In this document: one piece after another, positions 1 through 27,936 of the stretch
How the letters are laid out: each line of letters starts with the position of its first letter
Position numbering within the stretch: position 1 is the first letter of the stretch
Assembly (NCBI RefSeq): GCF_033097365.1
Contig: NZ_AP028461.1
Location: 9,327,501 to 9,391,500, forward strand
Length of the DNA stretch: 64,000 bases
Origin: Actinoplanes sichuanensis
GTDB lineage: Bacteria; Actinomycetota; Actinomycetes; Mycobacteriales; Micromonosporaceae
Reading direction: 5' to 3'
Translations under genes and position numbers: made by a program
The notes under the pieces: model-generated
Database searches by the model: none
What the model saw: the letters and a program-made list of their open reading frames with translations, nothing else
Told to the model about the DNA's origin: nothing

Positions 1-826
<826 letters not shown>

Positions 827-10641: not shown

Positions 10642-10714
10642 GCCCTCATCGTCTAGTGGCCTAGGACGCCGCCCTTTCAAGGCGGTAGCACGGGTTCGAA
10701 TCCCGTTGGGGGTA
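10642..10714 (+). tRNA. tRNA-Glu (anticodon TTC)
   Basis: A cloverleaf can be drawn: 7-bp acceptor stem ending in discriminator A, anticodon loop CTTTCAA with anticodon TTC, and T arm ACGGG/CCCGT around TTCGAAT. The first pair is G-U, as in related actinobacterial tRNA-Glu genes. CCA is not encoded. Confidence 0.97.
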
Positions 10715-10771
10715 CTGGTAAGTTAGTGGTCGCAAGCCACTGGCGAGCCAAGCAAGACAGTTACATAGCAA

Positions 10772-10845
10772 GGTCCTGTGGAGCAGTTGGAGTGCTCGCC
10801 GCCCTGTCAAGGCGGAGGTCGCGGGTTCAAGTCCCGTCAGGACCG
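10772..10845 (+). tRNA. tRNA-Asp (anticodon GTC)
   Basis: The acceptor GGTCCTG pairs with CAGGACC, the anticodon loop CTGTCAA gives GTC, and the T loop is TTCAAGT. The discriminator is G. It lies 57 bp after tRNA-Glu and is probably co-transcribed. Confidence 0.97.
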
Positions 10846-10858
10846 CAAGTAAGTTCAC

Positions 10859-10932
10859 GGCCAGGTAGCTCAGTTGGTACGAGCGTCCGACTGAAAATCG
10901 GAAGGTCGGCGGTTCGACCCCGCCCCTGGCCA
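10859..10932 (+). tRNA. tRNA-Phe (anticodon GAA)
   Basis: The acceptor GGCCAGG pairs with CCTGGCC, the anticodon loop CTGAAAA gives GAA, and the T loop is TTCGACC. The discriminator is A. It lies 13 bp after tRNA-Asp. Confidence 0.97.
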
Positions 10933-22710: not shown

Positions 22711-23550
22711 TCAATTGCATCGCTCGAGAAGTTGGACGACGCGCCAACGCGCCACCAACTTCTCGTAAGCCTCACTTGCTGACTCTGCGTCACCGCGAGA
22801 AAGTGCGGAAAGTCCGGCTGCCACCAGTCCGGGGGAATCGTCCTCGGTCAGGCTGTCCTCCGGGAGGAGGTTGACGAGACCGCCGTAGTCCAGCTCCACC
22901 ACCGACCGCGGATGGAACTCCTCCAGCCAGCGCGTACCCTCCTCGACCGCCTCGGTGATCGGCGCGTCGCCGAGCGACTTGCGCAGCACCGAGACCGCCC
23001 GGTGCGCCCGCCGCCGGGCCTTGGAGATCTCGGTGCGGTACCGCAGGACCTTGCGCCGGCCGGACAGCGCGATCTCCCGCTCGTCCAGATCGACGAACGC
23101 GAACCAGCGCAACGGGACACCCCATGTGGCGGTCTGCTCGTGCACCCGCGGCACACCCTGTTCGAGGACCTTCGCGCCGCTGCGCCAGTCCTCCACGACC
23201 GCTTTCGCCTGCCCGGCCAACACCGGCGGGACGAACGCGTCGGCGAGCACGGCGGGCACCCCGTCCCGGGCGTTCAACGCGGCCTCGGCGACCCGCAGGC
23301 GCAGGTTCCACGGACAGACCAGCACCGCGCCGTCCCACTCCAGCACATAGGCCTCGTCCGGCAGGTCGGGCAGTCGGGTCCACCCGGCGCCCAGTGCTTC
23401 GAGCACGGCGGTGCGCTGCCGTGCGGGGCCCTCGACCAGGCCCAGATCGCGGCCCTCGCGCGCGTACTCACGCCAGAAGACCTGACGCTCCCGGTCGAAG
23501 GCGGTCAGTGGCTCGTAAACCCGTAGGTACGACGCGAACAGTGACGGCAC
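22711..23550 (-). CDS. Conserved actinobacterial hypothetical protein
   Basis: This 279-aa soluble protein is probably a widespread actinobacterial protein of unknown function (LFASYLRVYEPLTAFDRERQ, YVLEWDGAVLVCPWNLRLRV, TATWGVPLRWFAFVDLDERE). No catalytic motif is seen. The start is GTG with AAAGGA seven bases upstream. It is divergent from valine dehydrogenase. Confidence 0.8.
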   Translation of the reverse strand: MPSLFASYLRVYEPLTAFDRERQVFWREYAREGRDLGLVEGPARQRTAVLEALGAGWTRLPDLPDEAYVLEWDGAVLVCPWNLRLRVAEAALNARDGVPAVLADAFVPPVLAGQAKAVVEDWRSGAKVLEQGVPRVHEQTATWGVPLRWFAFVDLDEREIALSGRRKVLRYRTEISKARRRAHRAVSVLRKSLGDAPITEAVEEGTRWLEEFHPRSVVELDYGGLVNLLPEDSLTEDDSPGLVAAGLSALSRGDAESASEAYEKLVARWRVVQLLERCN

Positions 23551-24947: not shown

Positions 24948-25181
24948 ATGGGGCGCGGCCGTGCTAAGGCCAAGCAGACGAAGGTGGCCCGGGAGTTGAA
25001 GTACCACTCCCCGAACACCGACCTCACCGCCTTGCAGCGCGAATTGGCGGGAACCCGCCAATCGGACCGTCATTTCGACGACGACAACGATGAGTTCGTC
25101 GACGATGACGAGGACGACGCTGCGGAAGACCAGGACACCTGGGGTGACCAGGACTCCTGGTCGCCTTCAAGGCGGAGCTGA
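24948..25181 (+). CDS. DUF3073 protein
   Basis: This 77-aa protein begins GRGRAKAKQTKVARELKYHS, the DUF3073 signature, and ends in an acidic Asp/Glu tail. DUF3073 proteins are small, conserved across actinobacteria and of unknown function; the basic head and acidic tail suggest nucleic acid or ribosome interaction. The ATG has GAGGGGG upstream with a few extra bases between. Confidence 0.92.
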   Translation: MGRGRAKAKQTKVARELKYHSPNTDLTALQRELAGTRQSDRHFDDDNDEFVDDDEDDAAEDQDTWGDQDSWSPSRRS

Positions 25182-25197: not shown

Positions 25198-25293
25198 GCA
25201 CGCGGACTCACCCGCGTGCTCCCGTGTGTCACGGGGTGACGATTCCTACGGTTGAACGACTGAAGCCCACGCGGTTCGTCCGCGTGGGCTTCA
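25198..25293. terminator. Two tandem GC-rich hairpins
   Basis: The first stem is AGCACGCGG / CCGCGTGCT (about 25198-25220). The second is a perfect 14-bp stem, TGAAGCCCACGCGG (25261-25274) / CCGCGTGGGCTTCA (25280-25293). They lie between the DUF3073 gene (plus) and the RiPP precursor gene (minus), so they probably terminate transcription from both sides. Confidence 0.75.
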
Positions 25294-25311: not shown

Positions 25312-25539
25312 TCAGCGTGGGCGGTTGTTCCAGTTGTAGAACGTAGGAATGTTTTCGAAGTGGTTCCAGGCGCACACCGCCGAGCCGCCGCTCTCTGGTG
25401 ACTCCTCAGCGCGCTGTTGCCTGGCCTCTTCCGCCTCCGCGATGAGCGCGGCCAGCCCGGCCCGGGTGTCGTGCACCCGTGCCGTCACCGGATCCGTCTC
25501 CACGTCGTCAGACAGCCGTGGCTTCGTGATCTCGGGCAT
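25312..25539 (-). CDS. Putative RiPP precursor peptide (aromatic-X-N/H triplet core)
   Basis: This 75-aa peptide has an acidic/Ala-rich leader-like part (residues 1-50, with a predicted helix AGLAALIAEAEEARQQ) and a core-like C-terminus after GGSAV. The core reads W58-N-H, F61-E-N, I-P-T, F67-Y-N, W70-N-N, then RPR: four aromatic-X-Asn/His triplets in one register, plus C56. Such Aro-X-X triplets are the substrate of radical SAM/SPASM enzymes that join an aromatic ring to the beta-carbon two residues later. The gene starts inside the 3' end of such an enzyme gene (32-bp overlap) with GGAGGG 11 bases upstream. The function of the product is unknown. Confidence 0.8.
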   Translation of the reverse strand: MPEITKPRLSDDVETDPVTARVHDTRAGLAALIAEAEEARQQRAEESPESGGSAVCAWNHFENIPTFYNWNNRPR

Positions 25540-26632
25540 GGTCCAGCACTCCCTCCAATAGGCGAATCTTGCTGTTCCGGCAGTGGTTCGTCTCGGTCAC
25601 GTCGAACCTGCCGTGTTCGAAGTACCGGTTGGCGGCGTGTGCTCCACCGCAGAAGCCGAAGTAAGGGCAGCTGCTCCGGCATGCCTCGATCCCGGTCAGG
25701 AACTCGCGGATCCACAGCGTGTCCTCCGCCCCGGCCAGGATCTCCGGCAGCGGTGTGGTCAGCACGTTGCCGCTGGAGAAGTCGCCGTACCGCGGGTCGT
25801 GGAAACCGGCCAGCTCGGGCGAGAGCAGCACGACTGTGCCGTCGTGAGCGATCGTCGGGATCGGGTCCAGCCGGCGGGGCAGCAGATCGTCCGCCCGGCC
25901 CTCCAGAACCGCTGACGCATACCTCAGCGACCACTCCACCTCACGCAGGTGGATCCGTGGGTCACGGCGCCAGGCGGTCACCAGCTCGGCCCAGAAGGCG
26001 CTCACCGCGGCCGGGTCGTGGCAGTTGAGTCGGGTGTTGACGCCCTCCTGCTCCTCGACGTTGATGCCGAGCACCTCGCAGCCGAGACCGAGGAAGTAGT
26101 CGTACAGCTCGGTGGCGACCCCGGGCCGCGGATCACCGACCACACACAGGGTGGAGAACGGGATGCCGTGCGCCCGGAGCCGCTCGATCCCGCGCACGAT
26201 CAGGTCGTAGGCGGGCTTACCGGCCCGGTCCACCCGGTCGCCGTTGCGGCCACGCGGGCCGTCCACGCTGACGCTGACCCGGACATCGTGCTCGACGAAG
26301 AACTCGCACCACTCGTCGTCGATCAGCGTCGCGTTGGTCTGCACGTGGTGCTCCACGCCCGCGCCGAACGGCGCGAACAACGCGGCCAGATGGGCCCGGC
26401 CCGCGGCGAGCGGCTCACCGCCGTGCCACACCACCGAGAATCTTCCGGTACGGGCGAAGCCGGCCACACCCGCAGCGACCGCCTCGGCCACCGCGACCGG
26501 CATCTTCAAATTCTCCCGGCGCAACGGCAGGTAGCAGTACCCGCACGCGAGATTGCAGAGCGTAGTGGGCTGCATGACGACGTAGCCGGGTTCTGCCGAG
26601 ATGCCCCGCATCCCGCTCCACGCAACCGTCAT
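25508..26632 (-). CDS. Radical SAM/SPASM peptide maturase (cyclophane-forming type)
   Basis: This is a 374-aa protein from the ATG at 26632 (GTG at 26659 and ATG at 26611 are alternatives; the last has GGAG four bases upstream). The radical SAM cluster motif is C26-NLA-C30-GY-C33. The C-terminal SPASM region has C318, C322, C328 and C351, with the pattern FCGGAHAANRYFEHGRFDVT that recurs in peptide maturases of the FxsB/GrrM-like class. It should reduce SAM and install C-C crosslinks in the adjacent precursor. The precursor is translated from an overlapping start. No protease or transporter is next to it. Confidence 0.88.
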   Translation of the reverse strand: MTVAWSGMRGISAEPGYVVMQPTTLCNLACGYCYLPLRRENLKMPVAVAEAVAAGVAGFARTGRFSVVWHGGEPLAAGRAHLAALFAPFGAGVEHHVQTNATLIDDEWCEFFVEHDVRVSVSVDGPRGRNGDRVDRAGKPAYDLIVRGIERLRAHGIPFSTLCVVGDPRPGVATELYDYFLGLGCEVLGINVEEQEGVNTRLNCHDPAAVSAFWAELVTAWRRDPRIHLREVEWSLRYASAVLEGRADDLLPRRLDPIPTIAHDGTVVLLSPELAGFHDPRYGDFSSGNVLTTPLPEILAGAEDTLWIREFLTGIEACRSSCPYFGFCGGAHAANRYFEHGRFDVTETNHCRNSKIRLLEGVLDHARDHEATAV

Positions 26633-26784
26633 GTCCCCGCACACTCCCGTTTCCGGCACCTCGTGACTCAGGTCAGGCTAGGCCTCGCGCTCCACAGTCC
26701 ATGCGAAAGATCCGCATGTGCCGGACATCGACACACGCGGATCATTTCACGTTGGGACTATTGCCAACCAGAATCACTTTCCGG

Positions 26785-27936
26785 TCAGCCCCGGGTGTAC
26801 GACCCCATCATCTGCACGTCGCCGGAGCCCTCGACGACCTCGCCGACCTGCCAGGCCTCGACACCACGGCCGGTCAGGTAGGCCATCGCCCGGTCCGCGT
26901 CGTCGGATGAGACGACCGCGAACATGCCGACACCCATGTTGAAGGTGGCCTCCATCTCCGAGTCCTCGATCCGGCCCTTGGCCTGGATCAGGTCGAAGAT
27001 CGGCTGCGGGCGCCACGTGGAGCGGTCCACGATCGCGTCCATGTTGGTGGGGAGCACCCGGTTCAGGTTGCCGGGGATGCCGCCGCCGGTGACGTGCGAG
27101 AACGCCCGGACGTCGGTCTCCTCGATCAGGCCCAGGCAGTCCTTGGCGTAGATCTTGGTGGGGGTGAGCAGTTCCTCGCCCAGGGTGCGCTGGGTGCCGA
27201 AGTCGTCGACCACGGTGTCCAGGCGCATCCGGCCGGCGCCGAGCAGCACGTGCCGGACCAGCGAGTAGCCGTTCGAGTGCAGGCCGGAGGAGCGCATCGC
27301 GATGACCGCGTCGCCCAGCTCGACCCGCTCCTTGCCGAGGATCTCGCTCTCCTCGACCACACCGACACCGGTGGCGGACACGTCGTACTCGTCCGGACGC
27401 AGCACACCCGGGTGCTCCGCCGTCTCACCGCCGAGCAGGGCACAACCGGCGTACCGGCAGCCGTCCGCGATCCCGGCGCCGATCTCGGCCACCTTGTCCG
27501 GGACGACCTCGCCGCAGGCGATGTAGTCGAGCAGGAACAGCGGCTCGGCGCCACACGCCACCAGGTCGTCGACGACCATGGCGACCAGGTCGATGCCGAT
27601 CGTGTCGTGGATGTCGAGCTGCTGGGCGATCACCAGCTTGGTGCCCACGCCGTCGGTGGACGACGCCAGGATCGGGCTCTTGTACTTCGCGGTGTTCAGC
27701 CGGAACAGGCCGGAGAAGCCACCCAGGTCGCCGATCACCTCGGGCCGGGAGGTCTTCTTCACCTTCGCCTTGAGCAGCTCGACGGCACGGTCACCGGCGT
27801 GGATCGAGACACCCGCTTCCGCGTACGTGGCCGAGCGCTTGCGCGGACCGCGGCCTGAGCCGGCCGTCCAGGGCTGACGGTCGCCTCCCTCGGCGCCGTT
27901 GGATCCGGCACTGTTGCGCTCGGACACGTGCGTCAC
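26785..27936 (-). CDS. purM: Phosphoribosylformylglycinamidine cyclo-ligase
   Basis: This 383-aa AIR synthetase uses ATP to close FGAM to AIR in purine synthesis. Family motifs are visible: TYAEAGVSIHAGDRAVELLK, DGVGTKLVIA, GGETAEHPGV, HVTGGGIPGNLNRVLP. The first 35 residues are an unconserved extension rich in Gly/Ser/Arg. The start is GTG with GGGGAG six bases upstream. It is 36 bp downstream of purF, same strand, and probably co-transcribed. Confidence 0.97.
   Translation of the reverse strand: MTHVSERNSAGSNGAEGGDRQPWTAGSGRGPRKRSATYAEAGVSIHAGDRAVELLKAKVKKTSRPEVIGDLGGFSGLFRLNTAKYKSPILASSTDGVGTKLVIAQQLDIHDTIGIDLVAMVVDDLVACGAEPLFLLDYIACGEVVPDKVAEIGAGIADGCRYAGCALLGGETAEHPGVLRPDEYDVSATGVGVVEESEILGKERVELGDAVIAMRSSGLHSNGYSLVRHVLLGAGRMRLDTVVDDFGTQRTLGEELLTPTKIYAKDCLGLIEETDVRAFSHVTGGGIPGNLNRVLPTNMDAIVDRSTWRPQPIFDLIQAKGRIEDSEMEATFNMGVGMFAVVSSDDADRAMAYLTGRGVEAWQVGEVVEGSGDVQMMGSYTRG

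Follow-up and report, generated by a model that had tools for sequence, protein, structure and literature searches.

The amcBA gene pair of Micromonosporaceae: a near-invariant candidate triceptide precursor kept beside purM

Why should a bacterial family keep one peptide maturase and one small precursor at a single chromosomal place, with the precursor core held almost without change? The question is raised by a gene pair in a 64,000-nucleotide stretch of Actinoplanes sichuanensis DNA (hereafter the window), which lies in a 12.1-Mb single-contig genome. The first-pass annotation had placed a radical SAM RiPP pair here, and both open reading frames are found at that place on the minus strand.

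25508 to 26659, minus strand: amcB, radical SAM/SPASM peptide maturase of 383 residues with a GTG start (NF041718, PF04055, invariant Cys)
25312 to 25539, minus strand: amcA, precursor peptide of 75 residues, type 3a (NF041722), adjoining amcB in 80/80 named loci
25315 to 25380, minus strand: amcA core AVCAWNHFENIPTFYNWNNRPR, residues 54–75, identical in 275/354 family genomes
25508 to 25539, minus strand: the last 32 nt of amcB, shared with the beginning of amcA; an overlap of the same length in 73/80 loci
25550 to 25556, minus strand: GGAGGGA, Shine-Dalgarno-like for amcA and within the amcB coding sequence (from sequence)

The full sequence of AmcA is MPEITKPRLSDDVETDPVTARVHDTRAGLAALIAEAEEARQQRAEESPESGGSAVCAWNHFENIPTFYNWNNRPR. 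Residues 58–72 read W58-N-H, F61-E-N, I-P-T, F67-Y-N and W70-N-N, exactly as had been claimed, and are followed by RPR. The pattern FCGGAHAANRYFEHGRF given for the SPASM radical SAM neighbour is likewise located in the enzyme. The position 26632 given in the first-pass annotation is an internal ATG (M10), likewise a plausible start for amcB, giving a protein of 374 residues. The overlap with amcA measures 26, 35 or 38 nt in six of the remaining named loci, and the one other value, −875, is assigned to L081 from its split amcB match. In that locus (L081:6001-7369, Actinoplanes liguriensis), the amcB match falls into two pieces about 240 bases apart, reflecting either a disrupted gene or an error of assembly, and the amcA core is intact. 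In 61 of the 80 loci, the 20 nt that precede the amcA start contain GGAGGG.

Judging from curated models, the pair are members of the already named AmcA/AmcB family. AmcB scores 519.8 bits against the NCBIfam equivalog model NF041718 (rSAM_phane_AMC, cut-off 425) over model positions 1–361 of 362, and AmcA scores 114.3 bits against NF041722 (phane_AmcA_3a, cut-off 65) as a full-length match (model positions 1–58 of 58). The earlier assignment of the two to the AmcB and AmcA types thus stands, and nothing in its sequence sets the pair apart from the named system. The accompanying remark that core and leader look unlike well-known examples does not, since the precursor matches phane_AmcA_3a at full length and its core is the commonest in the family. 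Public records of several relatives also bear the AmcA/AmcB name. Against the type 3b model NF041723, AmcA reaches 39.6 bits, under the cut-off of 65, while two relatives in other Micromonosporaceae genera pass it (78.5 and 95.6 bits). No Pfam match was obtained for AmcA itself, and PF28164 is a precomputed annotation of the 120 listed relatives out of 1082.

Other maturase families were rejected by score: GrrM/OscB triceptide maturase (TIGR04261, 227.4 bits against a cut-off of 310), FxsB maturase (TIGR04269, 86.3 against 370) and anaerobic sulfatase maturase (TIGR03942, 101 against 349.45). The YhhB model gives 93.1 bits, under its cut-off of 445. The enzyme could have turned out to belong to an unrelated sulfatase-maturase family with no conserved small open reading frame; TIGR03942 is not passed and, because the small frame is present and conserved, that outcome is not what we find. 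AmcB also matches PF04055. The radical SAM CxxxCxxC cysteines (C29, C33 and C36) and the C-terminal SPASM cysteines C323, C327, C333 and C356, in the numbering of the first aligned row, are invariant in 36/36 aligned AmcB sequences. When the predicted model of a natural maturase–precursor fusion protein (from genome G529, described below) was searched with Foldseek, the best solved matches were ChlB (E 1.2e-18) and the anaerobic sulfatase maturase anSME (E 4.7e-18), suggesting that the AmcB fold is like those of these two SPASM enzymes. No paper on AmcA was found in the open-access literature searched, where AmcA/AmcB occur as letters only in papers that, judged by title, concern unrelated subjects; a description in the subscription literature is possible.

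The position of the pair should be noted. The gene order SCP3-purF-purM-amcB-amcA-DUF3073 is found in the same orientation in 80/80 named loci, a set that leans to close relatives because it keeps the best 80 of 220 relatives in named genomes. Further out, LeuDH and the gene at 22711 are present in 79/80; the exception, L051, ends with its contig. The flanking features in the window are as follows.

26785 to 27936, minus strand: purM, the constant upstream neighbour (AIRS domains), upstream of amcB in 80/80 named loci
26709 to 26743, minus strand: hairpin followed by TTT, terminator-like, just after purM (from sequence and fold)
26675 to 26682, minus strand: CCTAGCCT, -10-like element, candidate separate promoter of amcBA (from the recurrence of TA[AG]CCT)
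25262 to 25292, no strand assigned: perfect hairpin, terminator-like, in the gap where amcA and the DUF3073 gene converge (from sequence and fold)
24948 to 25181, plus strand: DUF3073 gene (PF11273), convergent and downstream, present in 80/80 named loci

Measured to the ends of the BLAST matches in the 80 loci, the purM–amcB space is 107–585 bases (median 138) and the amcA–DUF3073 space 115–991 bases (median 200). The purM–DUF3073 interval thus offers little space for additional genes, and no protease or accessory gene was seen in it in the 80 named loci. Each of the 14 divergent members examined also adjoins purM, DUF3073 or both. In four divergent loci (L182–L185), DUF3073 was not found by search and the 22711 gene follows instead.

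TA[AG]CCT occurs in 68 of the 76 purM–amcB spacers shorter than 260 bases (four longer ones were left out), whereas 200 shuffles gave a mean of 2.74 and a maximum of 8. A consensus promoter scan of the locus found nothing, and a simple terminator scan called neither the 26709 to 26743 nor the 25262 to 25292 hairpin. Because a hairpin with TTT follows purM and a conserved -10-like element precedes amcB, we doubt that amcBA is co-transcribed with purFM.

The core is far more constant than the rest of the precursor. AVCAWNHFENIPTFYNWNNRPR is unchanged in 80/80 named loci, which come from 13 named genera; L055 has an extra Q before the stop after an intact core. Across the wider family sample, which holds one genome per species, the core together with its stop is exact in 275 of the 354 genomes, and the same pattern reversed has no match in any row. 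The DNA behind it varies: 65 distinct core sequences occur among the 80 loci with zero residue change, so a constraint at the DNA level, considered as an explanation for the invariant core, is rejected. In the same loci, the core pS is 0.353, against a leader pS of 0.460 and pN of 0.268; the core pN of 0.001 is an artefact of path averaging between six-fold Arg codons, as no residue differs. Close to the core, the AmcA leader has a helix-like pattern that is invariant; the stretch between its first eight residues and this part differs strongly among loci, both in sequence and in length. In the core, every residue is held by selection. The observation is far beyond chance, as seen from the matches to curated families and from a core identical in protein and not in DNA. 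Elsewhere in the family, the departures from this core that were read are Y68F in genomes of g143, g145, g146, g168 and g173 (those read of each genus), I64V in G603, a tail of RPPR or RPSR in the three genomes read of g147, and RPRQ in G447.

In a class-wide sample, AmcB exceeds the cut-off in 8/394 genomes, three from Micromonosporaceae and five from one other family, and in none of the 14 controls. A looser tally of 192/394 also fires in 12/14 controls and signifies just a radical SAM enzyme. Within Micromonosporaceae, 312/354 genomes pass the AmcB cut-off; the AmcB of the window is at most 95% identical to named Actinoplanes AmcB. Matches at E ≤1e-60 occur in 35/44 genera, dividing the 354 genomes into 316 from these 35 genera and 38 from nine genera with no AmcB at that threshold.

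A precursor was found in 312 of the 316 genomes. The type 3a model (E ≤0.001, weak 3b matches included) detects it in 303, and it was read in nine more (G467, G492, G525, G527, G528, G529, G707, G708 and G709). The remaining four (G526, G530, G720 and G743) have a contig end within or next to the locus. Candidate losses within the amc-bearing genera were rejected in the same way: G395, G530 and G720 have no AmcB match at E 1e-60 and G743 has a type-1 AmcB only, located elsewhere in the genome, and in all four a contig stops at the locus or next to it. G395 retains the two ends of amcB, split over two contigs, plus the precursor. The amcBA pair is kept by every genome of the 35 genera where the locus is readable, and the 38 genomes of the other nine genera live without it. 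In loci that have no amcB, low-stringency searches for a remnant gave nothing credible (best E 0.82). One genome, G639, carries two type 3a amcA copies on contig C1, at 209677 and 359011, about 149 kb apart and each with an AmcB.

The amcBA locus descends vertically beside purM. AmcB protein distances correlate with those of purM, purF and LeuDH at r 0.82, 0.81 and 0.83 (79 loci); for the short DUF3073 protein, the agreement is poor both with AmcB and with purF (r 0.397 each). Thirteen sampled amc-lacking genomes, among which all nine genera are represented, make up one side of a branch in the purM tree (support 100/99); the other 25 of the 38 are assigned by genus only. One gain and one loss are equally compatible with this branch, because the root of the purM tree is arbitrary.

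Sister cores at the same place show which part of the precursor is shared. The type 3b core is ...WRPFEDAFPTFYQFTNRPR, with the variant WRAFEDSFPTFYEFTNRPR in G532 and another form, GPRPFEDAFPTFYQFSN(R/S)PQ(R/K); G492 has GWRAFSDAFPTFWEFSNRPR. The core of genus g165, which we name 3c, is RWTDVFTTQFTEFSNRPR, with an added L in G708. The 3c loci L188, L189 and L192 adjoin purM, with DUF3073 also present in L189 and L192, and for the one 3c precursor scored (L192) the 3b model gives 21.5 bits and the 3a model 16.2, both below the cut-off of 65. Four aromatic-x-polar triplets are found in 3b (FED-A-FPT-FYQ-FTN) and in 3c (WTD-V-FTT-Q-FTE-FSN), in the same place as in 3a. The [WF]-x-N end is common to the sister cores, the spacers differ, and I-P-T of 3a corresponds to F-P-T in 3b. 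The single triplet register read by the first-pass annotation is therefore right for 3a, where a strict every-third-residue frame holds, and does not extend to the sister types, where single residues separate the triplets; what is conserved is thus the aromatic-x-polar triplet and not its register. The 3b and 3c precursors read lack Cys56, His60 and the first Trp triplet of 3a, which means that the product differs within the family.

In G529 (C429; L196 / L241:4026-5297), maturase and precursor form one open reading frame of 423 residues ending TGTYYNWNNRSR / ...CESTGTYYNWNNRSR. This fusion carries two triplets only. In its AlphaFold2 model the maturase is well defined (mean pLDDT 85.1, pTM 0.86) and the tail is disordered, with pLDDT below 50 from residue 399. 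The fused copy may be decaying, and the fusion comes from one fragmented assembly, as amcB of its sister genome, G530, is truncated internally.

What, then, would the pair make? The helix-like part of the AmcA leader would be recognised by AmcB, which, as in its family, would link the aromatic ring at triplet position 1 to the Cβ of position 3. Placed by triceptide chemistry, the most likely product would have four rings, W58-H60, F61-N63, F67-N69 and W70-N72, with I64-P65-T66 as an unlinked spacer, and would be released by a general protease encoded at an unlinked site. The earlier prediction of up to four rings is consistent with this count, as four candidate rings fit the sequence. It is rather unlikely, though a serious alternative, that AmcB instead falls short of four three-residue cyclophanes or makes links of another sort, as when only the triplets ending in Asn (FEN, FYN and WNN) close or other bond types are made. 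The available part of one review names Arg, Asn, Asp, Ser and Ala as triceptide acceptor residues (PMC11002830); His, needed for W58-H60, and the Thr, Gln and Glu of the sister types are absent from that list, so that fewer than four rings are quite possible. The first 3a Trp triplet has no polar third residue in 3b (WRP or WRA), in g154 and G467 it has no Trp at all, and the Y68F substitution indicates that Tyr68 is dispensable as a ring donor. Against these points, all three type 3 core classes keep four triplets in different arrangements, with the fused G529 copy as the exception. This is most easily explained by four rings and supports that prediction.

We consider it fairly probable that amcBA is a minimal two-gene, vertically inherited triceptide system of a housekeeping type, most likely making four rings, and that its product serves one fixed partner in the producer and is not a diversifying antibiotic. 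The single partner and the non-diversifying product are suggested by the vertical locus, the promoter-like element, the near-fixed overlap and the selected core. The partner, fixed within the producing lineage, could be one for which the peptide acts as a cofactor, a hormone-like signal, a metal ligand or a regulator of a conserved protein. Since ring residues, spacer and tail are all held and the locus is never seen lost in 35 genera, the product seems more like a cofactor or a signal than a weapon. Conservation alone names no role, and an antibiotic against a universal target could in principle be frozen too.

Another alternative is an ordinary secreted triceptide antibiotic or bacteriocin with a precursor that happens to be conserved, and the type-1 relatives are instructive here. 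Actinomycete RiPPs are often antimicrobial, and type-1 AmcA relatives lie in patchy clusters in which a pentapeptide-repeat gene stands next to amcB-amcA in 4/5 regions (L235, L236, L237 and L240; not L234). Pentapeptide-repeat proteins can confer immunity, and the gene is a possible immunity or target-mimic gene. The window's own genome has a second AmcB (G000 12129171-12130235; L002 / L234), about 14 kb from the contig end, with a type-1 precursor of five triplets (FDN, WDN, FDN, WDN and WNN) and a carbon-nitrogen hydrolase gene nearby. More than one AmcB match occurs in 56/354 genomes, and part of the extra copies were typed; the extra copy in G639 is type 3a. Second copies are patchy, the type-1 cores read are variable, and in the regions read they are not at the pur junction. 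It is telling that these copies, which belong to one enzyme family with the amcBA pair, stand in such contrast to it. The purM–DUF3073 interval of the 80 loci has scant space for an exporter, protease or immunity gene, the leader varies while the core is invariant, and vertical descent shows no confirmed loss in the 316 genomes, four of them unreadable at the locus. An antibiotic role is, in our judgement, improbable.

We give similarly little weight to the idea that the modified precursor stays uncleaved as a small intracellular cyclophane-tailed protein, possibly bound to AmcB. The lack of a visible protease gene between purM and DUF3073, the invariant helix-like leader pattern near the core and the single 423-residue frame of G529 would all suit such a protein. 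The strong variation of the leader ahead of the helix-like part argues against it, and the G529 fusion is one fragmented assembly with two triplets, a tail disordered in the model and a copy that is maybe decaying. Returning to the housekeeping interpretation, a stronger form of it is put forward tentatively, at slightly less than even confidence: amcBA would represent a cyclophane RiPP outside secondary metabolism, a near-frozen four-ring peptide with a fixed place in every readable genome of 35 genera, acting for its producer on one fixed partner, as a cofactor, hormone or regulator might, and made in G529 as a tail of its own maturase.

RiPP cores normally diversify. A core that stays fixed through 80 loci from 13 named genera, with its leader and silent sites drifting, marks a molecule needed in its exact form. 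PQQ and mycofactocin are RiPP pathways that serve the producer itself, and triceptide chemistry would join these few if the housekeeping interpretation is true. Three core types sharing one place are, in addition, a natural experiment from which the triplets closed by AmcB could be learned. As for what was known already, the family had its name; the family-wide upkeep of the pair and its core, and their fixed place, are seen here and are absent from the model names.

Among characterised systems, the 3-CyFE triceptides (XncB, OscB, MscB, YxdB, HaaB and YhhB) likewise combine a SPASM radical SAM enzyme with a small aromatic-x-x precursor, and their links join residues i and i+2, as described in the available part of PMC11002830. 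In contrast to these, amcA has four packed triplets whose third position is partly His (or, among the sister types, Thr, Gln or Glu), the GrrM/OscB and YhhB models are not passed, and no accessory gene accompanies the pair between purM and DUF3073. Type-1 AmcA (NF041721, with FDN/WDN repeats) shares the AmcB family and the triplet core, and differs in the patchiness, core variability, location and pentapeptide-repeat neighbours given above. The closest likeness in conservation is the bulbicupramide-type RiPP of Microbulbifer, likewise obligately conserved, there genus-wide; in the part of that paper available, its authors tie the conservation to critical functions (PMC12538549). Bulbicupramide is a copper chelator and the host is marine; the likeness drawn here concerns conservation, and the case offers a published precedent for taking obligate conservation to reflect physiology.

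AmcB-like genes also occur in other families under the cut-off of 425, at 419.4 bits in L013/L243 (G207) and 351.2 bits in L014/L244 (G035); no small open reading frame of the AmcA kind and no triplet precursor was seen near these two genes (L243 and L244). Motif scans gave no output at many loci, and when the regions around L006 and L140 were re-read, precursors were seen in both. Elsewhere in the window, positions 1–826 (minus strand) hold a 16S rRNA gene truncated where the window begins, and positions 10642–10932 (plus strand) hold three tRNA genes.
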